Source: a virus. Taken from it: 22,181 bases of DNA. The position numbers and the translations under genes are program-made. The notes below the pieces were generated by a model. It worked only from the letters and a program-made list of their open reading frames with translations, did not search any database and was not told the DNA's origin. The stretch spans positions 1 to 22,181 of the IMG/VR virus record IMGVR_UViG_3300044630_000334; one strand, given 5' to 3'. Of this stretch, positions 1,537-20,595 are shown piece by piece. Position 1 is the first letter of the stretch. The number at the start of each line of letters is the position of its first letter.

Positions 1537-2313
1537 CTACGGCTGACTAAACTGGAAAGTGACGTACCCGCTCGAGCCACCAACTTCGATATTGTACTGC
1601 TGCCCCGGAGTAACCGAAACAGAAGAAGCACTCACTATAACTTGCGGCTGACCTGCCGACGTAGTGCCCGCTGCGGTGCGCCCAAAAGCGGAAGATTGAC
1701 CGCCGGGAAACTCGCCGCCCTCTTGATATACTTGAACAGCAATGCTCCATTCAGTGGGAGGTTGTGTCGGGCCACCTACTAAAGCACTGCTACGATTATC
1801 CCATGGACCGAAAAGGCGTTCAGCAACGCCGTTTATACGTAGGGTTACAGAACTCTCAAAATTCCAATAATAACCGTTCGTACGGCTGTTCCAATACAGC
1901 GATATCGGGTCGTAAGTTACAGAGCGGTCGCCGGTCCCACCTGAGTTAAAATTCGAAAGGACGAGACCTGCGTAGGTGGTTACGTTATTATATGATAAAC
2001 CATCGGATGAACCCGGTGAATCGAAGCTCGGCGTATACCTAGCGGCGTAGATAGAACCCGTGTTATCGTTTATAAAAAACCCTTCTGAAAAACTGTATAG
2101 ACCACCGGCAACCTGAAGGTTAACAATCGTAGACACACCAGCAGGTGCAGTCCAAACGCCAGAACTGTTAAATGTAACCGTCTGAAAGACAGAAGGCGGG
2201 GGCGGAGGCGGCGGAGTCGGGGTCGGAGGCGGCGGTGGAGGAGGCGGAGGAGCAGCCGAAAACGTACCAGCCCCTCGTGCGCTTGCTACTCCACGTGTGA
2301 CGATTGTCGGCAC
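1537..2313 (-). CDS. Polyproline-linker tail fibre/adhesin-like protein
   Basis: This 258-aa protein starts at a GTG supported by an AAGGAG ribosome site 6 bases upstream. Residues 1-20 form a short Gly/Ala head, residues 22-40 are proline interrupted only by Thr31 and Thr33, and the rest is a Ser/Gly/Tyr/Asn-rich beta domain. The domain opens with a pattern like VWTAPAGV and closes with YNIEVGGSSGYVTFQF. The same opening and closing are seen in the collagen-like protein at 7687-8646, so the two appear to be diverged members of one fibre-tip family. It lies between another fibre-like gene and the nozzle-like gene, with gaps of about 10 bases. A host-recognition or tail-appendage role is inferred; I do not recognise a named family. 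Confidence 0.7.
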   Translation of the reverse strand: MPTIVTRGVASARGAGTFSAAPPPPPPPPPTPTPPPPPPPSVFQTVTFNSSGVWTAPAGVSTIVNLQVAGGLYSFSEGFFINDNTGSIYAARYTPSFDSPGSSDGLSYNNVTTYAGLVLSNFNSGGTGDRSVTYDPISLYWNSRTNGYYWNFESSVTLRINGVAERLFGPWDNRSSALVGGPTQPPTEWSIAVQVYQEGGEFPGGQSSAFGRTAAGTTSAGQPQVIVSASSVSVTPGQQYNIEVGGSSGYVTFQFSQP

Positions 2314-5904: not shown

Positions 5905-6132
5905 TCACAATGGACAGATGACCGCTGTATCCGTATCTTGGTAAAACTCTATACGCCCTTTGCACGCAATATTCCAGTCCGGACCGTCAGCTTCTGACCA
6001 ACTAGGCACCAGTATACGCACGTGCCGCGCCAAGTGTTCTTTGCCATCCTCGAATACGCGCCAGACATGCTCAGGAGAACCACGACCCGGCTGTCCTGCG
6101 GACTTATTAAAGCGGATGCGGAACTTAGGCAT
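5905..6132 (-). CDS. Conserved small phage protein, function unknown
   Basis: This 75-aa protein begins MPKFRIRFNKSAGQPGRG and contains HVWRVFEDGKEH and PDWNIACKG. I recognise a similar small protein from many marine phages but know no function. The ATG at 6132 is preferred over a longer frame starting at 6171, because it gives a compact 8-base overlap with the upstream stop and the conserved part begins here. The mixture of Arg, His, Trp and Asp residues and the even beta-strand pattern suggest a single small beta-rich domain. It links the fibre-related genes to the lysis cassette. Confidence 0.65.
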   Translation of the reverse strand: MPKFRIRFNKSAGQPGRGSPEHVWRVFEDGKEHLARHVRILVPSWSEADGPDWNIACKGRIEFYQDTDTAVICPL

Positions 6133-6856
6133 AGGGGCAGAGCTTGGCTGCTCGCTTGGCACGGTTATCAAAAAAGAGGGTATACCCCTTACGGTAGGGT
6201 AGCCTGTGACGCTCTTCCTCGCTTACTAGCTCGTACACCAGCTTAAGTGGCCTATCTGACATAGGTATAAAATGCGTAAGGGGTTGCCCAAATGAAAACT
6301 CGTACACTTTGGGTTCGGGATACCTACGTATAAATAAGTTTAAATTGAGTTCTAGTCCGTATTTATAATCTGCAACCCCGGGAGGTACAAGTACATCTTC
6401 TGCACCAAACCCATTCCACATAGGTGCAATTAGAGTAAATTTGACGCCGCTATCCTCCCTCACTGCCCAAGGACTTATTAGTTTTAAGTGGTTGTGCGTC
6501 CGTAGGTAGGGGTTCCCCGCCATTTGATGATCTACATGCTCATGGGCAACTGAAACTTTATCGGCATACTGGTACTGATAATCTTTGTTAGGGGATACCT
6601 CCACTTGGAAGTCAGACCACATAGGATGGATAAACCCCCGCGAGTATAGGTCTACAAAACCCGGACAAGTTTTCATAGTGGGGATTGAGGACATTACACT
6701 AGGCACTTGCTCATCCCTATAAGTTTTTTTAGGGAGCGCCTTCCACCAATCAGGTATAAAATGCGCCGCCTTTTGGGGGCGTGAAAACTTGTATGCGCTT
6801 TCGTTGTCGGTAAACAGCGTGACGATAAGCGGCTTTTTCTTGAATATGAACAACAT
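6125..6856 (-). CDS. Conserved phage protein of unknown function, beta-rich
   Basis: This 243-aa protein starts at an ATG that overlaps the previous stop as TAATG. It opens FIFKKKPLIVTLFTDNES and has conserved-looking blocks AAHFIPDWWKALPKK, MKTCPGFVDLYSRGF, HLKLISPWAVRED and GQPLTHFIPMSDRP. I have seen this type of protein in marine phages near tail fibres and oxygenases, without a known function. Alternating hydrophobic residues in the second half suggest a double-stranded beta-helix (cupin-like) core, but no clear metal-binding triad can be assigned, although several histidines occur in the middle (AHEHVDHQM). No signal or TM segment is present. Confidence 0.7.
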   Translation of the reverse strand: MLFIFKKKPLIVTLFTDNESAYKFSRPQKAAHFIPDWWKALPKKTYRDEQVPSVMSSIPTMKTCPGFVDLYSRGFIHPMWSDFQVEVSPNKDYQYQYADKVSVAHEHVDHQMAGNPYLRTHNHLKLISPWAVREDSGVKFTLIAPMWNGFGAEDVLVPPGVADYKYGLELNLNLFIRRYPEPKVYEFSFGQPLTHFIPMSDRPLKLVYELVSEEERHRLPYRKGYTLFFDNRAKRAAKLCPYA

Positions 6857-7242
6857 TATTCTGGAGCTTTCGGCCACGTTGGGTCGGGAAAGTTTTCGTC
6901 AGAGCGTATATCGCGCAGCGCCATACGGTACTCCACCCACTCTGCTCTTTTGGCTTTGTTCATGGGGATATCGGGTAGCATCGCCCAGTCACTTTGCGAT
7001 AAAAGCTTCTTAGCGCGCTCCCAAGCTAACTCCTCGGGCGTGGATTCCTTCGGTAGCGGGGGTTCTTCACCGACTACAACCCACCCTTGGTTTTCGTACT
7101 CCGTCCCCATCCACGATAGATCACCGAGTTTATCCTCGAAAGCATGGAGACCGAATACCGGCCCCCAGTTTTCAGGAAGGGGTTGTGGTTTGTTTAGCGG
7201 CTCGCCGCTTTGAAGGTTTTTTAACTGCCACAGCTTCGCCAT
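6856..7242 (-). CDS. Tail fibre assembly chaperone-like protein
   Basis: This 128-aa protein starts at the ATG at 7242, which has a strong AGGAG site 6 bases upstream; a longer in-frame start at 7287 has no such support. The C-terminal 50 residues (LLSQSDWAMLPDIP, KRAEWVEYRMALRDI, then P-x-WP near the end) match the pattern of phage tail assembly chaperones (Phage_tail_APC / tail fibre assembly type): 'SDW..LPD', 'R..W..YR..LR'. Such proteins help fold or attach tail fibres, so the likely clients are the fibre genes in this region. The first 71 bases overlap the end of the upstream gene in another frame. Confidence 0.8.
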   Translation of the reverse strand: MAKLWQLKNLQSGEPLNKPQPLPENWGPVFGLHAFEDKLGDLSWMGTEYENQGWVVVGEEPPLPKESTPEELAWERAKKLLSQSDWAMLPDIPMNKAKRAEWVEYRMALRDIRSDENFPDPTWPKAPE

Positions 7243-7687
7243 CTTTGTTCTCCTGCACCATGCCAACACCAAAACCGGGCTGCTCATTTGGAGGCGGTAG
7301 ATTTTTACCTACGTCCATGTATGGTGCCATATCATTCACGTGAGGGGCATGACCTGAAGCCAGTAGGCCACCTCCGCCATGCCGATAATGTTCAAGTTCT
7401 TCCTTGGTGTAGTTCCAATCCCGCCAGCTAGAAAAGTCCCTACGGGGCTGAATATGAATATGACAGCCGATGTTTGCCGCAAGCTGATGTATGAACTCAA
7501 CAACTTCGACAGGCTGTAGGACCATCCACATGTAGTCGTTATTGCCGCGCATCATTATCTCTGTAGTGCCTCCTGAGCAGGTGCCTACAGTAATTGATCT
7601 TGCCCGCGACAAATCTCCTTGCCGATTTTGCACCGACATGTCATTTTCTATCTCTTCGAATGCCTTTTTCCGTTCGCGCTTATTCAT
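7172..7687 (-). CDS. Conserved phage protein of unknown function
   Basis: This 171-aa protein starts at an ATG overlapping the stop of the collagen-like gene as TAATG. The N-terminus is charged (NKRERKKAFEEIENDM), the middle has conserved-looking blocks (DYMWMVLQPVEVVEFIHQL, CHIHIQPRRDFSSWRDW) and the C-terminus is basic and low-complexity (KKPSKRRAAKQTT). The two Trp and the His-x-His pair are notable but no catalytic site can be named. I have a recollection of similar proteins in marine phages near tail fibres. The last 71 bases also encode the start of the tail-assembly chaperone, in a different frame, so the low-complexity tail may be shaped by the overlap. Confidence 0.7.
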   Translation of the reverse strand: MNKRERKKAFEEIENDMSVQNRQGDLSRARSITVGTCSGGTTEIMMRGNNDYMWMVLQPVEVVEFIHQLAANIGCHIHIQPRRDFSSWRDWNYTKEELEHYRHGGGGLLASGHAPHVNDMAPYMDVGKNLPPPNEQPGFGVGMVQENKDGEAVAVKKPSKRRAAKQTTTPS

Positions 7688-8646
7688 TACTGCGGGTTCC
7701 AAGAAATTGTAACCTGTCCCCCGGGAGAACCCACCGCGATGGGATAAGGGCTACCCGGACTAACTGTCTGGCAGTTAAACGTAGAAGGGTTACCGGCAGC
7801 ACCCGGATTACCGGGGTTACCAGAAAAAACAGTACCGGGGTTTGTGGTGCTACGTCCTCCTCCGCCTCCGCCGCTTCCACCACCAAAGCTTCCATCGCCA
7901 CCTCGGCCAGCAGCACCAGCAGTATTCAGCGGATTACCGCTGTTGCTACCGAGTGCAGGGTTGCAAGCCCCCGAACCGCCGCCACCAGTTATGGCGGGAT
8001 TTCCCGCGGGAGACCCCGGGGCACCTCCGATGGGACCTCCCACACCTTGACTGCCGTAACCAACAGAACAGAAATAACAACCGCAAGAGGTAACATACGT
8101 AATGGCACCGCCGCCGCCGCCGCCGCCGATACCGCCCCCACTAGTAAAGTTAGCCGTACCACCATTGCCACCTGTACCACCTGCCCCGCCGGGAAAAGTC
8201 TGGGATATCCCAGTAGAAGCCGTCCCTGTAGCTCCGGGATTACCCGCATTTCCGGGGTTACCCGCCCCGCCAGGATTGGCACTATTCCCCGGATTACCTG
8301 ACCCGGCGGACGAATTGCCTGCATTACCGCCGCCATTGGGGCCTCCAAGGTACGCGGGTAATCCCGGAGTGCCGGGGTACGGCCCGAAATAATTACCACT
8401 GGGGTAGAATGCTTGAGCACCGCCACCACCACCGCCACCACCACCGCCTGCACGCGAAGGAGTCGGGGAAGCACTACCGGGATTGCCGGGGTTACCAGCC
8501 GTGCCGGTACCCCCTTTTCCAGTTATACTTACCTTGCACACACCCACCGGCACAGTGAACGTACCGGGCGCATTAAAGGTCTGAGTACCGCCGGGGACGA
8601 TGCTTTTGCCCCCAAAAAGGACGACTTTAGTGGTTCCGATAGCCAT
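7687..8646 (-). CDS. Collagen-like, glycine-rich tail fibre/adhesin protein
   Basis: This 319-aa protein begins with a beta segment (FNAPGTFTVPVGV) and ends with another (YPIAVGSPGGQVTISW); between them are glycine-rich loops. These include a run of ten glycines at residues 67-76, another run at 175-180, and collagen-like tracts such as GNPGNPG (51-57) and ANPGGAGNPGNAGNPG (123-138). I count 17 X-Pro-Gly sites, nine being Asn-Pro-Gly. Cys188, Cys190 and Cys193 form a small cluster in CGCYFC. Polyglycine-rich loops are known in T-even adhesins (gp38 type), which bind host receptors. A tip adhesin role is inferred. It lies 3 bases after the last of four oxygenase genes. Confidence 0.78.
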   Translation of the reverse strand: MAIGTTKVVLFGGKSIVPGGTQTFNAPGTFTVPVGVCKVSITGKGGTGTAGNPGNPGSASPTPSRAGGGGGGGGGGAQAFYPSGNYFGPYPGTPGLPAYLGGPNGGGNAGNSSAGSGNPGNSANPGGAGNPGNAGNPGATGTASTGISQTFPGGAGGTGGNGGTANFTSGGGIGGGGGGGAITYVTSCGCYFCSVGYGSQGVGGPIGGAPGSPAGNPAITGGGGSGACNPALGSNSGNPLNTAGAAGRGGDGSFGGGSGGGGGGRSTTNPGTVFSGNPGNPGAAGNPSTFNCQTVSPGSPYPIAVGSPGGQVTISWNPQ

Positions 8647-8649
8647 AGC

Positions 8650-9237
8650 TTAACTCCTACCGCACTTACTCATTCCGTAAGCGGGACGTTTGTCTATAGC
8701 GTATACAGCATTAGGACCATTCTTGTCTACGTAATGTAGCATAAATTGTACGGTAAGCTGTCCTTCCTTTAGAGGTTGCCGCCAATGCGATACTTCGCAC
8801 CCTTTATAAACTACGGCATCTCCGGGTTTTAAGATGTGCTTTTCTGGGTCGTTCTTACCATACTGGGTATAAATAGGCGAGACTTCACCTACCGACGCTA
8901 CGTTTACGGTGACGCTTATTTCACACGACGGGCGATCTATGTGAGGCGATAGCTTCTCGCCCGGTTGGTATATACGTGCGTACGAGTATGTTGGTATAAG
9001 CTCCTTACCAGTGGCTCCCTCTATAGCTGCCAAACTACGTTGCAAAAACACCTCGACAAGTGGATCAGCGTAGTAGAAATACTTTGACATAAGGTCCGAG
9101 TCTTTAAGAGTCTCCACCCATTCTCCACGCTTAATACGGTTTTCCAAGTATTGGGAAATAATGGCGGTGGACGTTTCGTCGATGAAGCTGTCAACCTTGA
9201 CACAGCCACATGCTTCAAAGGTTTCTACATCAGTCAT
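8650..9237 (-). CDS. 2-oxoglutarate/Fe(II)-dependent oxygenase-like protein (4th of 4)
   Basis: This 195-aa protein begins at the ATG at 9237, overlapping the upstream gene by 8 bases; an in-frame start at 9396 would lie deep inside that gene. The C-terminal half has the double-stranded beta-helix pattern: YARIYQPGEKLSPHIDRP gives iron ligands His99-x-Asp101, and LKPGDAVVYKGCEVSHWRQ gives the distal His151. The expected basic residue that binds 2-oxoglutarate is not obvious; Gln164 in VQFMLHYV is near where an Arg is normal. Such enzymes hydroxylate proteins, nucleobases or small molecules; the substrate is unknown. It ends the oxygenase run, directly upstream of the collagen-like gene. Confidence 0.85.
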   Translation of the reverse strand: MTDVETFEACGCVKVDSFIDETSTAIISQYLENRIKRGEWVETLKDSDLMSKYFYYADPLVEVFLQRSLAAIEGATGKELIPTYSYARIYQPGEKLSPHIDRPSCEISVTVNVASVGEVSPIYTQYGKNDPEKHILKPGDAVVYKGCEVSHWRQPLKEGQLTVQFMLHYVDKNGPNAVYAIDKRPAYGMSKCGRS

Positions 9238-9826
9238 AATAGAACCACCCCGTAACGATATACTTACTTTGGTCGCCAAATACCGCATTACCTCGGTGGG
9301 CGTGCGTGAACGTAGCAGGCCATATGAGCAGCGTATTCTCTTCCGGCTGTACTCTGCGTTGCTGGTAAAGAAACTCAGTTTCTCCAGCAGCGTCAACAGA
9401 TAGATTATTCAGGTATAACGTGTAGACTAGAACACGATCCGCATGGACCCCGTTACCCTGCTCTGCGTGCCATATATGGTATCCGCCGCCCGGAGGTGTG
9501 CGCTGCATTTTCATAGCAGTACCGTGGATTTTGCCATCCTTTAGGACAGAATATTTGTTTGTGTACTCGTCGTAGCACTTTTGTAGACCGTTGAAGAATA
9601 TATCCGTTGCTGCTGTATCCTCAAAAGGGGCAAGTGTGTGTACCCGCATATTAAGTGCTATCTGGTGGTCATTCTTTCTGTGTGCATCCGCACCTTCGCC
9701 CTGTTGCCTGTTTGACCCTGCACCTGATTGCTCAAGCCGGTCAAACTCACGTATAAGATGCTCGCAATACCCCTTGGGATACACATCTGTATAGGTGGCG
9801 ATAAAGTCTTTGTGTTCTACGTTCAT
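9230..9826 (-). CDS. 2-oxoglutarate/Fe(II)-dependent oxygenase-like protein (3rd of 4), HxE variant
   Basis: The start at 9826 overlaps the upstream stop as ATGA and gives 198 aa; a start at 9850 is possible but has no ribosome site. The prolyl-hydroxylase-like pattern is visible in order: GGGYHIWHAEQG (His120-x-Glu122 as iron ligands), RVLVYTLYLNN, GETEFLYQQ, LLIWPATFTHAHRGN (distal His175 or 177) and KYIVTGWFYYD, where Lys188 is in the 2-oxoglutarate-binding position. The iron motif uses Glu instead of the usual Asp, and a Lys rather than Arg co-substrate anchor is also how collagen-type prolyl 4-hydroxylases are known to work. Protein hydroxylation is a reasonable guess. Confidence 0.88.
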   Translation of the reverse strand: MNVEHKDFIATYTDVYPKGYCEHLIREFDRLEQSGAGSNRQQGEGADAHRKNDHQIALNMRVHTLAPFEDTAATDIFFNGLQKCYDEYTNKYSVLKDGKIHGTAMKMQRTPPGGGYHIWHAEQGNGVHADRVLVYTLYLNNLSVDAAGETEFLYQQRRVQPEENTLLIWPATFTHAHRGNAVFGDQSKYIVTGWFYYD

Positions 9827-10410
9827 TTGAATGCTGGCCCCGATACCCATGCTACTAGTGACTGCCGTGTTCCCTGCGTGACGGGTGTGACTTGATGGAG
9901 AGTATAAGCGGGGAAAGCAGTAATCAAGCCCCGTTGTTTGCGGACGTTCTTTGGATCACCGCCTGTCATGACTTGGAGGTTGCCCCCCTCGTATTGCGCT
10001 GGATCAGACAACTGGAGGACGAGGCTCAGCTTGCGGCTCGGGGATAGCTTCCCGCCATAATCTTGATGCCAGCCATACATGCCATGCTCGGACTGCTCGT
10101 AGTTAGTTAACTGTAGTGCCTCGCCAAAGCCAGTCAGATCGAAGCGGTAGTATTCTGCGTTTAGTGAGGATGCAGCGTGCGCCAACTTCTCAAATACCCA
10201 TGCTGTCTCTGGCGTCTTGTTAAGCCATGAAACTTGCGACCGGCGGATATTATTGAGCGCGGCTTGGTCAGGATTGCCGCCCACTTGCGCTTGCTGATTG
10301 GCGTCCTTGGCTTGCTCTTGCAGCCAATCAAGCTCTTGCTCTGTGAACGCGCCTTCCCACCAGACAAACGGTTCGACCGGCATGGCGTAAGGAGTTAGCA
10401 GGTGCTGCAT
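9823..10410 (-). CDS. 2-oxoglutarate/Fe(II)-dependent oxygenase (2nd of 4), PiuC/P4H-like
   Basis: This 195-aa protein has the complete catalytic set: His115-x-Asp117 in MYGWHQDYGG, distal His172 in AFPAYTLHQVTPV, and Arg182 in TRQSLVAWVSGP for 2-oxoglutarate. The spacing and the strand KLSLVLQLSDPAQYEGGNL match the prolyl-4-hydroxylase-like superfamily. The start has an AAGGA site 6 bases upstream and overlaps the previous gene by 16 bases. The reaction would be hydroxylation of an unidentified substrate using O2 and 2-oxoglutarate, giving succinate and CO2. The N-terminal 100 residues include FVWWEGAFTEQELDWL, the usual entry helix of this family. Confidence 0.92.
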   Translation of the reverse strand: MQHLLTPYAMPVEPFVWWEGAFTEQELDWLQEQAKDANQQAQVGGNPDQAALNNIRRSQVSWLNKTPETAWVFEKLAHAASSLNAEYYRFDLTGFGEALQLTNYEQSEHGMYGWHQDYGGKLSPSRKLSLVLQLSDPAQYEGGNLQVMTGGDPKNVRKQRGLITAFPAYTLHQVTPVTQGTRQSLVAWVSGPAFK

Positions 10411-10988
10411 GGACGATCCTTATGTGAAATGATGAAGTGCAAGCACCGTGTTGGTGTCTCAGCGTTTCCGCCCGCAAGCTGGTGCTGCATCCATGAATTA
10501 GCGAAGAGGACAGTCCCCGTCTGTACGTTGTTAAAGTAAATGCTGTTCGTGGCGTTCGTCACTTCGTCGCTAAGTGCGAAGTCAAGCTCGATCATCGCCT
10601 TGTTCATCCGAGTGTCGTGATACACTGGGTACGCGCCCCCTTGAGGTGCGTCTACAAACATCCACCCGCAGACTTGGCTGTTCTTGTGGATGTGGACATT
10701 AGTACCGCTCTGCGCCCCGGTCTCCTGTACCCATAGCCCTGCGAGGTAGAAGTCGTAGCGCTCAACCGCGTAGCCTTGGTCACGCAGCATTTCAACGCCA
10801 GATACCAAAAGATAATCAGCCACACGCCGAAACGCTGGGTCGTGCTGGACACTACCAGTTTGGCACATAGGGTGCCCGTCGCCTCTCACGTTATCGAGGT
10901 GTTGGATACAAACGGGTAGTATCTCTTCTACAAGATCAGGCCGCTCGTCCCGGTATACAAGAGCCGGGAAATATGCAAAGGCTTGCAT
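10395..10988 (-). CDS. 2-oxoglutarate/Fe(II) oxygenase-like protein (1st of 4), 2OG-FeII_Oxy_5 type
   Basis: This 197-aa protein starts at an ATG overlapping the upstream stop as TAATG. It resembles the 2OG-FeII_Oxy_5 family: the block VHIHKNSQVCGWMFVDAPQG corresponds to the 'H.H..S..SG..Y...P..G' signature, followed by a proline/Tyr strand (GGAYPVYHDTR), distal His169 in LFANSWMQHQL and Arg181 in TPTRCLHFII. The first iron motif reads HIHKN (His99, His101) without a plain His-x-Asp, so the exact ligands are unclear. The helical N-terminus includes YFPALVYRDERPDLVEEIL. It begins the run of four oxygenases, after the small helical gene that follows the tail fibre. Confidence 0.82.
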   Translation of the reverse strand: MQAFAYFPALVYRDERPDLVEEILPVCIQHLDNVRGDGHPMCQTGSVQHDPAFRRVADYLLVSGVEMLRDQGYAVERYDFYLAGLWVQETGAQSGTNVHIHKNSQVCGWMFVDAPQGGAYPVYHDTRMNKAMIELDFALSDEVTNATNSIYFNNVQTGTVLFANSWMQHQLAGGNAETPTRCLHFIISHKDRPCSTC

Positions 10989-11254
10989 TACGCATCAACG
11001 TATGAGGCAAGCGTATCCGCAAACTCCGTGATTTCTTGGGCGGTGACACCACGCTCATCGGCTGGAGCGCTGCGCTTGTTCTCGATAAGAACTTCCTTGG
11101 CGAGGCGGATAAGCTCAAGCTTGGAGCGCTTATTTTCCATGTCGGCGCGCTGCGTTTCAAATTCAAGCATATTTGCATGGCGAACGGTTTCTACCTGTAT
11201 CTGCGTCGCAGCCATAATATCGGCTCGTTCTTGTTGGTCTGTAGAAAGTGTCAT
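10988..11254 (-). CDS. Small helical (coiled-coil) protein of unknown function
   Basis: This 88-aa protein has an AAGGA site 7 bases before its ATG and is almost wholly helical in pattern: ADIMAATQIQVETVRHANML, then FETQRADMENKRSKLELIRL with a heptad-like spacing of Leu, Ile and Met. The C-terminal third (GVTAQEITEFADTLASYV) looks like a second short helical bundle. It follows the large tail fibre gene by 17 bases and precedes the oxygenase genes. The position suggests a fibre assembly helper or a small virion protein, but no family is recognised. Confidence 0.65.
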   Translation of the reverse strand: MTLSTDQQERADIMAATQIQVETVRHANMLEFETQRADMENKRSKLELIRLAKEVLIENKRSAPADERGVTAQEITEFADTLASYVDA

Positions 11255-11271: not shown

Positions 11272-13629
11272 TTAAGCTAGCATGTTCTTCATGGCGATGT
11301 TGCCATAATATGTCGTGCCGTTATCTGGCGTAAAAAACACCCAGATGTCAACTGCGTTAGCAGTAGTCGTACGCGACAACGTGGCTGCACCACCCGGAAA
11401 TTTAAATGATCCGCCTGACGCTGACCATGCAACTGAGCGACTCGGAGTAGCGTCGTTCGTCAGGATCAACGTGAAAGACGACCCACGGTTGGAACTGGCG
11501 TTAGAGCCAGCCAGTGTAAAAGTGCAGTTGCCTGTCAATGTAGCGGTAAAGACGTTGCCTAGATTAAGATCGATTGTCTTGGACGTGCCGGTGTTGCCAA
11601 GTGCAACGACCTTATCTGAATAGGTCGCTTCGAGGTAGCCAACGGTGCTGATTGTTGCACGGATTGCTGCTGCTGTATAGTCGTAGAAGTTTAGTTCGCC
11701 GCTCTGCGAATAGATGCCCCACGCGTCACCAGTGCCCGTGCTGCGCTTGCTGACAGTGAGAATCGCGCTTGCACCTGTTGAGCGGATAACACCAGATACA
11801 TCCAACTCTACACCCGGCAAACTTGTACCAATCCCCAGCCGGTTGTTAGTATCATCCCAGAAAAAGTTAGCATTGTCTTGCGAATAGACGCCGGAACCGC
11901 CAGCAAAAACAACTGAGCCAGCGGTGAAAGGCGTAGCAGTACCCGTACCGCCATTAGCAGGAGGGAGCGTGCCTGTAACCGTCGCAGAAGCAAGGTTGAC
12001 GCTCAATGTACCGCCAAGGGTAAGCGAACCCGTGGAAGTCACCGAGCCAGTAAGAGTAATCCCGCTAACCGTGCCTGTACCGCCTACGCTCGTAACCGTA
12101 CCTACATACTGGTCAGCCGACGAAATGCTAAAGCTCGGATAAGAGCCGCCGATTGTCGTGGTGCCGCCACCCGTAAGTGCGACAGTCTGGTCGGGAGCCG
12201 AGTTGGTAACAGTAATTGCACCGCTACCGTTGCTGATTGTAATCCCTGTGCCCTGTGTCAGTGTGCTTTGCGTAAGCGAGCCGTCGGAGGTCTTACCGAT
12301 CAGGAGTTGCCCGTCCGTGTATGCCGTATGTCCTGTGCCGCCAGCAGCAACAGGAAGAGTGCCAGCCGTCAGTGTCGTGGTGCCCGACGAGAAAATCGCA
12401 CGGTTAGCAGCGCCAAATGTAGCCAGACCCGTACCGCCTAGCGTCGTAGCTACAGGATTTGTGAGGCTGAACTGTGTGCCAGACAGCGTGAGGCCAGTGC
12501 CTGCCGAGTAAATCTGAGCACTGGAGATTTGGGCAAACGTGATGTTTGTCGTGCCAAACGTAATGGTCCCGACGGTGTTGCAAGTATATGTCTCGCCTGC
12601 GCCGGTCGTACCCTGTTGGACAAACACGGTCGAGCCTTCGCTCAGACCGTCTGGGCTAGCGCTGACGTAAGTGTTTGCGTCACTGGAGCGTGTTAGTACC
12701 CAGTTGGTCGAGACGCTACCTACCGTCGTAACAACGTAGATGCCATTCTCGGTCTGATCGGTCTGCGTATAAATAAGGACGCGGTCAGCGACGCTAACCG
12801 TTACACCATCAAGAACCAGCGCAGCTTGAGTGCCCGCATTGGTCAGGGTAGCGCCAACCCCGGCAGTGCCGTTGTTGTACGTCGCGTTCAGGTTGGTCGG
12901 TGACTCGACCCGCACCGGCTGGTGGAAGTGAATACCAGCGGACACCTGAGTGTCCACATACTGCTTAGTAGCTGCCTGCAAATCCAATGTCGGGTCTTGG
13001 GTCAGCGTAACCGAGACCAGACCGGCAAGAGTTGTAGATGTAGCACCAAGGGAAATAGCCGTTGTGCCGACAGTGACCGCACTATTGCTTAGCGCAGCGT
13101 TGGGGATAGCAGTGAAGTTCGTACCTGTAAGAGTTGGCGTCGTCGAGAAGGAAGGCGTTGTGCCCCCAATCAAAACACCGGAAGCCGTAGCGACAAATGC
13201 CGTAGTATTAGCAGCAGTCTGGTAAGGCACAGAACCCGCAGCGCCAGCAGCTAGATTAGTAGCCCGCGTAGCCGTCGCCGCGTTACCCGTGACGCTGATG
13301 TTGACGTTACCAGCAGCGTCTTCATTGACCGACTTTTCTGCTGGGTAAGTGACAAAAACAGCCTTATCACCGGAACCGAAGTTAACAAGATTGCCACTAT
13401 TGCTGGAGGCTAGCACGGTATCACGGCTTAGGCTTGTGCCTATCGAGGTGTATGCCCCGATACCAACTTCCCAATCATTACCACCGTAGATGGCGTAGTA
13501 GGTCGTGTTGCCGTTGCCGATAACAGCAAAGGACTGAAACCCAGTGGGGGGAGTATTGGCAAGCGTAATCGTCCCCGTACCAGTCGTGGTCGTTACATCT
13601 TGTACGCGGTCCGCGAGAACGAGAGCCAT
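11272..13629 (-). CDS. Large tail fibre protein
   Basis: This 785-aa protein is the largest complete gene here. Its N-terminal 110 residues (ALVLADRVQDVTTTTGTGT through VFVTYPAEKSV) match a module common at the front of marine phage fibres and probably attach it to the tail. The shaft is Thr/Ser/Gly/Ala-rich with recurring short strands such as AAGGTG and TLGGTG, and a conserved segment (HFHQPVRVESPTNLNATYN through NGIYVVTTVG). The C-terminal 140 residues (KTIDLNLGNVFTATLTGNC, ending IAMKNMLA) form a compact beta domain likely to contact the host. The start has GAGGTAGG upstream, and a long hairpin lies in the preceding gap. Confidence 0.9.
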   Translation of the reverse strand: MALVLADRVQDVTTTTGTGTITLANTPPTGFQSFAVIGNGNTTYYAIYGGNDWEVGIGAYTSIGTSLSRDTVLASSNSGNLVNFGSGDKAVFVTYPAEKSVNEDAAGNVNISVTGNAATATRATNLAAGAAGSVPYQTAANTTAFVATASGVLIGGTTPSFSTTPTLTGTNFTAIPNAALSNSAVTVGTTAISLGATSTTLAGLVSVTLTQDPTLDLQAATKQYVDTQVSAGIHFHQPVRVESPTNLNATYNNGTAGVGATLTNAGTQAALVLDGVTVSVADRVLIYTQTDQTENGIYVVTTVGSVSTNWVLTRSSDANTYVSASPDGLSEGSTVFVQQGTTGAGETYTCNTVGTITFGTTNITFAQISSAQIYSAGTGLTLSGTQFSLTNPVATTLGGTGLATFGAANRAIFSSGTTTLTAGTLPVAAGGTGHTAYTDGQLLIGKTSDGSLTQSTLTQGTGITISNGSGAITVTNSAPDQTVALTGGGTTTIGGSYPSFSISSADQYVGTVTSVGGTGTVSGITLTGSVTSTGSLTLGGTLSVNLASATVTGTLPPANGGTGTATPFTAGSVVFAGGSGVYSQDNANFFWDDTNNRLGIGTSLPGVELDVSGVIRSTGASAILTVSKRSTGTGDAWGIYSQSGELNFYDYTAAAIRATISTVGYLEATYSDKVVALGNTGTSKTIDLNLGNVFTATLTGNCTFTLAGSNASSNRGSSFTLILTNDATPSRSVAWSASGGSFKFPGGAATLSRTTTANAVDIWVFFTPDNGTTYYGNIAMKNMLA

Positions 13630-19475: not shown

Positions 19476-19858
19476 TAGACAAACCGTCCTTTTGTTTTAC
19501 CCTTGGTAGCGCAGCCATCAGCGCGCTTGGACGCAGAGCCACCGTGAGCCATCTTCTTGACCTTACCGCCCTTGCGCATCATCGTACCGGCAGGGGCTTC
19601 TTCAGCCATCATAACTTCGTCCATCATAGGACGACCGCGCATACCCATAGGGGCTTGTTCAGCTACCATAACATCTTCTACCATTGGACGCCGAGGCATA
19701 CCGGCTGCGGCCTCTGCTGCCTTTTTCTTCTTTTTAGCTAGCAGCATACCCGCGAGGCCCAAACCACCACTACGGGCGATTTTATTAGTTATTTTTGGGT
19801 TGGTCGCTGCAAGTCCAGCAAGGCCGAACATACCGCTTTTTGCAAGTTTCTTCATCAT
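19475..19858 (-). CDS. Lysine-rich protein with internal duplication and KRADG cassette
   Basis: This 127-aa protein has two internal repeats. SGMFGLAGLA and SGGLGLAGML are related hydrophobic glycine-rich pieces at about residues 8-17 and 30-39. GMPRRPMVEDVMVAEQAP (53-70) and GMRGRPMMDEVMMAEEAP (72-89) are a tandem pair, identical at 11 of 18 positions. The C-terminus is RKGGKVKKMAHGGS followed by the ASKRADGCATKGKTKGRFV cassette. The middle is lysine-rich (AKKKKKAAEA). The start forms TAATG with the upstream glycosyltransferase stop. The hydrophobic pieces may contact the membrane. No family is recognised. Confidence 0.7.
   Translation of the reverse strand: MMKKLAKSGMFGLAGLAATNPKITNKIARSGGLGLAGMLLAKKKKKAAEAAAGMPRRPMVEDVMVAEQAPMGMRGRPMMDEVMMAEEAPAGTMMRKGGKVKKMAHGGSASKRADGCATKGKTKGRFV
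19478..19549 (-). repeat. KRADG cassette, copy 1 (C-terminus of the 127-aa protein)
   Basis: These 72 bases encode HGGSASKRADGCATKGKTKG and RFV before the stop. This copy and the one at 19044-19118 both sit exactly at a protein C-terminus. Confidence 0.75.
19592..19702 (-). repeat. Tandem 54-base duplication inside the 127-aa gene
   Basis: Two adjacent units of about 54 bases encode GMPRRPMVEDVMVAEQAP and GMRGRPMMDEVMMAEEAP, separated by one Met codon. The bases are similar as well as the residues, pointing to a fairly recent tandem duplication. Confidence 0.7.
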
Positions 19859-20595
19859 TATGCTGCGTCCTTCTGTGCGGGGACAACCATCGGATAGAGG
19901 ATGTCTTGGCCGTAGTTACCGGTATATTCCTGTACGCCCATGTGACCTAACGAGATTGATGGGTCGATCCAGACGTCGAAACCGAGTTCACGTGCACGGT
20001 CACAGAAGAGGAAGTCTTCCCCCATGTAACCTTCTTCCGTAACTTCGAAATCAAACATCGCAGTGAGCATACGATCCGTGCGTGTGTCATAGTATTTCCA
20101 CTCCGGATGGGCGGCTTCCATCTGTTCAAAGACTTCACGACGCACCAACATAAAGGCAGTCGCCACACGCTTCGCACGTACAAGACCCATACCATTCATG
20201 GTGAGTTCGCCATTTTCGTCATGGTCAAGCGTAGCGATGTAAGTTTTGGTTTCGCTGCGGGTGCGCGGCACGCCAGCTACAATACCCTTCTTGGGGTCTG
20301 TACCCCACGCCATAAGGCGGAATATATCTTGTGCCTCGAAGTTAATGTCCGAGTCGATAAACATTAGGAAATCGCAGTTCGACTCCAGCAAGTCCTGCGC
20401 CAGCAAGTTGCGCGCACGAGAAACAACCGAACACCCGCATATGCTGCCGATGTGGATATCAACTCCGTGCTGCGCAGCCTGTTGCGCAAAGCGAGCAAGA
20501 GAAACAGCTAGCTTCAAGGACACCTTGAAGTCGTATGCAGGCAGGGCAACGAAGATGCTCTTACCTGCTAGGTCGTAGCTCTGTTCCTGCTGCAT
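19858..20595 (-). CDS. GT-A-type glycosyltransferase
   Basis: This 245-aa protein has a nucleotide-sugar-binding entry (KSIFVALPAYDFKVSL), the acidic motif Asp81-Ser-Asp83 in FLMFIDSDINFE (the DxD metal and sugar-nucleotide site), and the acceptor-side block MGEDFLFCDRARELGFDVW at about 191-209 followed by GHMG (His218). This order is that of inverting GT-A (family 2-like) glycosyltransferases. It would move a sugar from a nucleotide donor to a phage or host acceptor; candidate acceptors are virion proteins, since it is among virion genes. It has no TM segment. The start has a weak GGGTGA site and lies 3 bases after the previous stop. Confidence 0.88.
   Translation of the reverse strand: MQQEQSYDLAGKSIFVALPAYDFKVSLKLAVSLARFAQQAAQHGVDIHIGSICGCSVVSRARNLLAQDLLESNCDFLMFIDSDINFEAQDIFRLMAWGTDPKKGIVAGVPRTRSETKTYIATLDHDENGELTMNGMGLVRAKRVATAFMLVRREVFEQMEAAHPEWKYYDTRTDRMLTAMFDFEVTEEGYMGEDFLFCDRARELGFDVWIDPSISLGHMGVQEYTGNYGQDILYPMVVPAQKDAA

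Follow-up and report, generated by a model that had tools for sequence, protein, structure and literature searches.

Oxygenase genes in described phages and related proteins

Genes for 2-oxoglutarate (2OG)/Fe(II) oxygenases are common and unexplained in aquatic phages, where they are usually called auxiliary metabolic genes (AMGs). In cyanophages they have been proposed to modulate 2OG/NtcA (nitrogen balance) or to act in DNA repair (PMC3037559); in pelagiphages they have been reported as nearby, rather than adjacent, genes co-located with “ferrochelatase” partners (mSystems 2022, PMC9599517); and a 2026 annotation paper found phage 2OG oxygenases to be widely similar to the human prolyl hydroxylase EGLN3 (PMC12774648). 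In a limited search of the open-access literature, no paper was found that connects the 2OG oxygenases of phages with tail-protein modification. The present work concerns a cassette of four overlapping oxygenase genes, F1 to F4 in order of transcription, at positions 8650-10988 of IMGVR_UViG_3300044630_000334, an IMG/VR virus fragment of 22,181 bp (the whole stretch analysed, hereafter the window) from an aquatic virus infecting bacteria. The cassette lies inside a tail module, as an earlier note on this DNA had recognised in placing it among virion genes, and is followed by a gene for a glycine-rich (Gly-rich) protein with G-N-P triplets, a feature more informative than the four-gene run and one which the earlier note had missed. 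With a fixed cassette tied to a single structural protein that bears regular X-Pro-Gly triplets, the question of function becomes directly testable by mass spectrometry.

Annotations of marine phages already include runs of oxygenase genes, and the cassette is a variant on them. Four in a row had been considered unusual, but in cultured pelagiphages and cyanophages such runs comprise 3 to about 10 genes, partly labelled “ferrochelatase” or “hypothetical”: gp65-67 in HTVC023P, gp58-61 in HTVC033P (with one small gene between), Mosig_00055-00060, five genes in HTVC008M, SSM1_051-061 in S-SM1 (including a “leprecan” gene) and gp47-54 in syn9 (3 of the 8 matched cassette profiles). The pelagiphage runs (HTVC023P, HTVC033P, HTVC008M and Mosig; PMC9599517) resemble the cassette in having consecutive Oxy_3, Oxy_5 and phrog_2954 genes beside tail and Gly-rich genes, but their order and number vary and their Gly-rich proteins are not enriched in GNP, whereas the cassette has a fixed order with overlaps and belongs to a different lineage. 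The cyanophage runs of 2OG-Fe(II), phytanoyl, “leprecan” and “ferrochelatase” genes (S-SM1, syn9) likewise consist of genes for about 200 amino acids (aa) next to tail fibre and Gly-rich genes, but the relatives in them are only 30-40% identical.

Three kinds of known protein also approach the cassette. The PBCV-1 collagen prolyl hydroxylase vCPH (5c5t) and the bacterial prolyl 4-hydroxylases (P4Hs; 3itq/5hv0, 4j25) share the fold and the H...K arrangement kept in F3, and the cassette has an X-Pro-Gly-rich neighbour; identity with F3 is very low, however, F3 has HxE instead of HxD, and the activity of F3 is putative. PKHD-type hydroxylases (YbiX/PiuC, Sbal_3634, 3dkq) have, like F2, the canonical HxD...H...R, in a different genetic setting. 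The polyglycine-rich tail fibre adhesin gp38 of phage S16 (cited in PMC6957217) is a Gly-rich phage tail protein like the cassette neighbour, which differs in having GNP triplets; no report of hydroxylation or of linked oxygenases was found for gp38.

Four members of the oxygenase superfamily

All four genes, encoded on the minus strand, specify members of the 2OG/Fe(II) oxygenase superfamily: F1, F2 and F3 because they passed the curated Pfam cut-offs, and F4 because of its predicted model and its PDB matches. F1 (10395-10988, 197 aa) is of the 2OG-FeII_Oxy_5 type (PF13759, 2.4e-8; phrog_81), F2 (9823-10410, 195 aa) is PKHD-like (PF13640 or Oxy_3, 6.9e-14; phrog_61), F3 (9230-9826, 198 aa) is P4H-like (PF13640, 3.1e-10; phrog_61 at 1.6e-39) and F4 (8650-9237, 195 aa) belongs to phrog_2954. 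The start of F4 is the ATG at 9237, a listed 248-aa open reading frame (ORF) being merely a TTG extension. The limits of the run and its overlaps (16 nt for F1/F2, 4 nt for F2/F3 and 8 nt for F3/F4) had been given correctly in the earlier note. The AlphaFold2 model of F1 (mean predicted local distance difference test, pLDDT, 91) had uncharacterised marine proteins as its best PDB matches (3bvc/2rg4, VIA Z 20.6), with 2OG oxygenases ranking below. The F2 profile matched the PKHD-type structure 3dkq at 1e-12, F2 itself being under the NCBIfam PKHD equivalog cut-off (67 bits vs. 143), and the F3 profile weakly matched the viral P4H 5c5t (8.6e-4). The nearest PDB folds of the cassette models included protein/peptide prolyl hydroxylases.

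The four genes represent distinct families and not simple duplicates, as had been claimed from the sequence. A recent tandem duplication was rejected, since profile-profile comparison showed no significant similarity between families (the best, F2-F3, had a probability of 2.4% and E 0.019), a comparison limited by the low alignment diversity of the families, with F2 and F3 sharing one PHROG. F1-F4 and the Pfam members were too divergent for alignment across families. In PADLOC, F2 and F3 matched just one model, the generic “2OG, CRISPR-associated” one, and no further sign of a role in defence was seen. Several 2OG oxygenases, including F3 (4.7e-5), gave weak but significant matches to phrog_274, “DNA endonuclease V”, and one phrog_274 gene, Mosig_00058 (42695-43207 of its contig), sits within an oxygenase run; the name of this family may be wrong too.

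Residue conservation was judged on alignments of 47-58 homologues per family. The HxD/E...H metal triad was present in F2, F3 and F4: H115, D117, H172 and R182 were invariant in F2 (canonical HxD...H...R), H120, E122, H175/H177 and K188 in F3 (HxE...H...K), and H99, D101 and H151, together with R153 and Q164, in F4 (HxD...H-W-R). In F1 four histidines were invariant (99, 101, 169 and 184), forming H99-x-H101...H169, D125 being just nearly invariant and the basic residue that follows the distal histidine varying among R, K, Q and T. In the motifs read earlier as HQD, HAE and HID, the histidine and the acidic residue were invariant. For F1, H-x-H is a better reading than HIHKN, since the K and the N differ between family members. 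The 2OG residues proposed for F2 (Arg) and F3 (Lys) were invariant, and no conserved basic residue was found in the F4 family alignment at +9 to +11 after the distal histidine, but the Arg proposed for F1 was not invariant. F1 and F4 may bind cofactor or metal unusually, because F1 has no carboxylate in the usual position and F4 no conserved basic residue at +9 to +11. Catalytic activity of the four enzymes is predicted.

Conservation of the cassette in related viruses

Relatives were collected from IMG/VR by protein scan (51 for F1, the best 80 of 119 for F2, the best 80 of 429 for F3 and the best 80 of 96 for F4) and dereplicated to 99 non-redundant loci; counts “with room” refer to loci whose contig reaches far enough. 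F2 stood directly before F3 in 95 of 95 loci with room and F1 directly before F2 in 85 of 90. F4 followed F3 in 56 of 97, and the order never changed. The refuting condition set in the earlier note thus did not apply: the genes were not scattered and their neighbours were shared. Overlap lengths were conserved too (16 nt in 70/87, 4 nt in 92/94 and 8 nt in 54/56 loci), and the ratios of nonsynonymous to synonymous substitution rates were 0.03-0.11 for F1 and F2, comparisons for F3 and F4 being saturated at synonymous sites. Chance ORFs or random clustering were rejected on the basis of the conserved overlaps and purifying selection.

F1-F3 are a conserved unit. In the loci having F4, distance-matrix correlations were 0.67-0.76 among F1-F3 and 0.24-0.36 between F4 and F1-F3, and because of this difference F4 is regarded as an optional, independently exchanged addition. 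Independent acquisition, suggested earlier for the whole run, is argued against for F1-F3, which were kept as a unit in about a hundred related contigs. The multi-step pathway suggested for the four enzymes was not shown, F4 being optional, evolving independently and looking like an add-on.

The 99 loci had been recruited by the cassette genes themselves, and the linkage was therefore repeated with two other queries: F5, a conserved protein encoded after the Gly-rich gene, and the Gly-rich N-terminus. Oxygenase genes were directly upstream in 35 of 35 loci with room newly recruited by F5, and in 40 of 40 newly recruited by the Gly-rich N-terminus (best 80 of 270 relatives); the F2-F3 adjacency and the following Gly-rich ORF held also in these loci recruited without F1-F4. 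The cassette of the window is a mosaic: its F1 is 92% identical to that of one relative (L003), and its F3 is far more diverged from the same locus.

A minimal cassette (F2-F3-Gly-rich-F5) was found in L257, an 11.6 kb phage-like contig placed in a Verrucomicrobiales bin and probably mis-binned. Among bacterial genomes this contig held the closest relative of F3, more distant chromosomal homologues occurring in, e.g., Massilia and Lysobacter. A protein encoded farther downstream in L257 starts like a flavin-dependent (tryptophan-halogenase-type) enzyme, as judged by eye.

The differences among the four genes would also fit a mixed set, in which tail proteins are hydroxylated by F2 and F3, with F1 and F4 having other targets or being degenerate, non-catalytic partners. 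F2 and F3 have the canonical HxD/E...H...R/K arrangement, in contrast to the HxH of F1 and the lack of the usual basic residue in F4; 5 of 90 loci lack F1 next to F2-F3, 41 of 97 lack F4, and F4 evolves independently. However, the invariant His/Asp residues of F1 and F4 persist even in divergent homologues, purifying selection acts on F1, and in the loci without F1 before F2 (L090, L093, L096, L083 and L168) a divergent oxygenase of the F1 type (125-139 bits) lies some 2-3 kb downstream. A mixed set is considered very unlikely.

The Gly-rich neighbour and the tail module

The module is ordered tail fibre, 88-aa gene, oxygenases, Gly-rich protein, F5 and tail chaperone, all on the minus strand. 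Its upstream border is a tail fibre-like protein of 785 aa (11272-13629; PHROG tail fibre/head decoration matches), followed by a gene for 88 aa (10988-11254) which lies directly upstream of F1 and overlaps it by 1 nt. After the cassette come the Gly-rich protein (7687-8646, 319 aa), F5 (7172-7684, 170 aa), which was present in 94 of 99 loci and matched no Pfam, PHROG or NCBIfam family, and a tail fibre assembly chaperone (6856-7287; PF16778, Pfam 9.3e-13).

A Gly-rich ORF followed the cassette in 97 of the 99 loci, as the next gene in nearly all, with 33% Gly overall and a median length of 336 aa. Compared with within-protein shuffles, GNP was enriched 6.25-fold, NPG 6.0-fold, and AGN and PGN about 4-fold. 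From its sequence, G-N-P/N-P-G resembles the triplets of collagen or polyglycine II, X-Pro-Gly being the context in which collagen P4H classically acts. In the lineage of two loci, L242 and L091, F5 comes before the Gly-rich gene; downstream of the cassette there are several more Gly-rich ORFs (about 350-480 aa), and the same contig also has a Gly-rich ORF of 1319 aa.

Because of this gene neighbourhood and the triplet motif, the Gly-rich protein is proposed as the substrate: the enzymes may hydroxylate Pro/Asn residues in this tail protein, the cassette being a tail-maturation set, a reading to which we give a little less than an even chance. F1-F4 would be co-translated Fe(II)/2OG hydroxylases produced late in infection. 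Their targets would be structural proteins of the tail, above all the product of the adjacent Gly-rich gene, and the modified residues Pro and/or Asn in its G-N-P/N-P-G (X-Pro-Gly type) triplets. A segment resembling collagen or polyglycine II would in this way be stabilised or decorated before the PF16778 chaperone takes part in assembling the tail, F1-F3 forming the fixed core and F4 giving an optional extra specificity. Substrate, modified residue and purpose are all putative, as suggested by neighbourhood and motif.

The same neighbourhood is compatible with other targets in the tail (the neighbouring tail fibre, the 88-aa protein or F5), the Gly-rich gene being only a syntenic neighbour. 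The rest of the module was linked as tightly to the cassette as the Gly-rich gene (the 88-aa gene in 84/84, the tail fibre in 64/64 and the chaperone in 48/48 loci with room, and F5 comparably), and in S-PM2 the genes for a short tail fibre and for a tail chaperone lie next to an oxygenase. However, a regular, enriched X-Pro-Gly triplet is known for the Gly-rich protein, the one protein scored; its gene directly follows the cassette even in the minimal L257; and Gly-rich proteins recur near the oxygenase runs of marine phages. Modification of other tail proteins instead is thus thought rather unlikely.

Several observations weigh against hydroxylation of the Gly-rich protein. Its linkage may just reflect shared ancestry of the tail module, and since the whole module is syntenic, synteny alone cannot single out the substrate. 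The HxD/E carboxylate is missing from F1, and F4 has no basic residue for 2OG in the usual position; moreover, the small-molecule oxygenases SnoN and SnoK were as good matches to the models as the prolyl hydroxylases. Distance-matrix correlations singled out no oxygenase as partner of the Gly-rich protein (F1-F3 gave 0.54-0.62 where F4 is present and 0.46-0.48 in all loci). The GNP counts of the Gly-rich protein were the same with or without F4; its proline content was 8.8% with F4 and 7.8% without (p = 2e-4), a difference uncorrected for relatedness and not used as evidence. In the marine phages, the Gly-rich proteins had no GNP enrichment (0-1 per protein), and no protein of at least 20% Gly was found within about 8 kb of isolated F2/F3 relatives in three other phages. 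The tblastn search of the Gly-rich protein against the named phages gave no match, which low-complexity filtering may explain, and the same search with F5 gave none either.

In five marine phages all Gly-rich ORFs (at least 20% Gly and at least 200 aa) lay no more than 5.5 kb from the oxygenase run (placement p 0.04-0.30; Fisher combined p = 0.005). Three of these genomes were complete and two nearly complete (the first 50 kb of HTVC023P and the last 50 kb of HTVC033P). The combined value is suggestive only, because the five phages are not independent: three are Kyanoviridae and all infect marine bacteria. The Gly-rich genes of syn9 were about 6 kb from its run, with tryptophan halogenase genes between, and the richest protein of S-PM2 had 19% Gly.

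More generally, a dedicated phage system may exist, in which several non-redundant hydroxylases per virus would hydroxylate Pro/Asn in collagen-like/polyglycine-II tail proteins, with variants in pelagiphages and cyanophages partly named “ferrochelatase”; this wider claim is possible but doubtful. If true, a large share of the “2OG AMGs” of marine phages would serve to modify virion proteins and have no metabolic role.

The genes could instead encode auxiliary enzymes of metabolism or of nucleic acids, with host metabolites, 2OG levels, DNA/RNA or defence as their targets, the late tail region being a site that tolerates insertions. The cyanophage proposals of 2OG/NtcA modulation and DNA repair (PMC3037559) are of this kind, Mosig carries several isolated 2OG genes amid replication genes, and F4 is weakly AlkB-like. 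F4 was, however, far under the AlkB cut-offs (16.3 bits vs. 267 for PRK15401 and 13.8 vs. 31.2 for PF13532), and the fixed order and overlapping translation within a tail operon, in about 100 non-redundant loci, are unlike a changing cargo site. Metabolic or nucleic-acid roles are judged unlikely.

F4 and the “ferrochelatase” label of phrog_2954

The best family of F4 was phrog_2954 (2.1e-43), whose PHROG label is “ferrochelatase”. In Pfam, the best that F4 itself reached was Oxy_2 at 0.07, below the cut-off, while 30 of 52 F4 homologues matched 2OG-FeII_Oxy_2 (E up to 1; best 3.9e-5). AlphaFold gave F4 a mostly beta model (pLDDT 91), whose PDB matches were a Pseudomonas P4H, PHD2, SnoN and SnoK (Foldseek E about 1e-9 to 1e-8), with VIA Z of 16-18 over 154-189 residues against 2OG oxygenase structures; the predicted structure of an S-SM1 “ferrochelatase” was among its top viral matches. 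A position of F4 outside the superfamily was rejected given the Oxy_2 matches of the family, the model and the PDB matches. The ferrochelatase profile PF00762 matched none of the 52 F4 members, HTVC023P gp67 included, nor any of the “ferrochelatases” of HTVC033P, Mosig, HTVC008M, S-PM2 and S-SM1. Ferrochelatases have a chelatase alpha/beta fold and about 320 aa; F4, with 195 aa, a confident mostly-beta model, whole-length matches to 2OG oxygenases and no PF00762 match, does not look like one.

Because the F4 model matched 2OG oxygenases and the “ferrochelatases” of the named phages lacked a PF00762 match, phrog_2954 is very probably an oxygenase family and its label looks wrong; the GenBank “ferrochelatase” names in S-PM2, S-SM1 and the pelagiphages conflict with the predicted oxygenase fold. 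In a 2024 virome study, the 2OG oxygenase and ferrochelatase categories were both enriched in seasonal virus groups (PMC11561400). An oxygenase fold for phrog_2954 would affect the inferences of PMC9599517 and PMC11561400, which treat the co-occurrence of ferrochelatase and 2OG genes as a biological partnership.

Other genes of the window

Nearly all plausible genes of the window are on the minus strand and many encode tail or virion proteins. Adjoining the tail chaperone, a 250-aa phrog_7084 protein is encoded at 6125-6877 (minus strand), with a homologue at that place in just 6 of 48 relatives. A protein with long proline runs (PPPPPPPPPTPTPPPPPPP) is encoded at 1537-2313 (minus strand), and the family search gave no match for it. 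A glycosyltransferase-like protein (19858-20595, minus strand; PF13506, above the cut-off) lies among virion genes, and it could, purely speculatively, act on hydroxylated residues.

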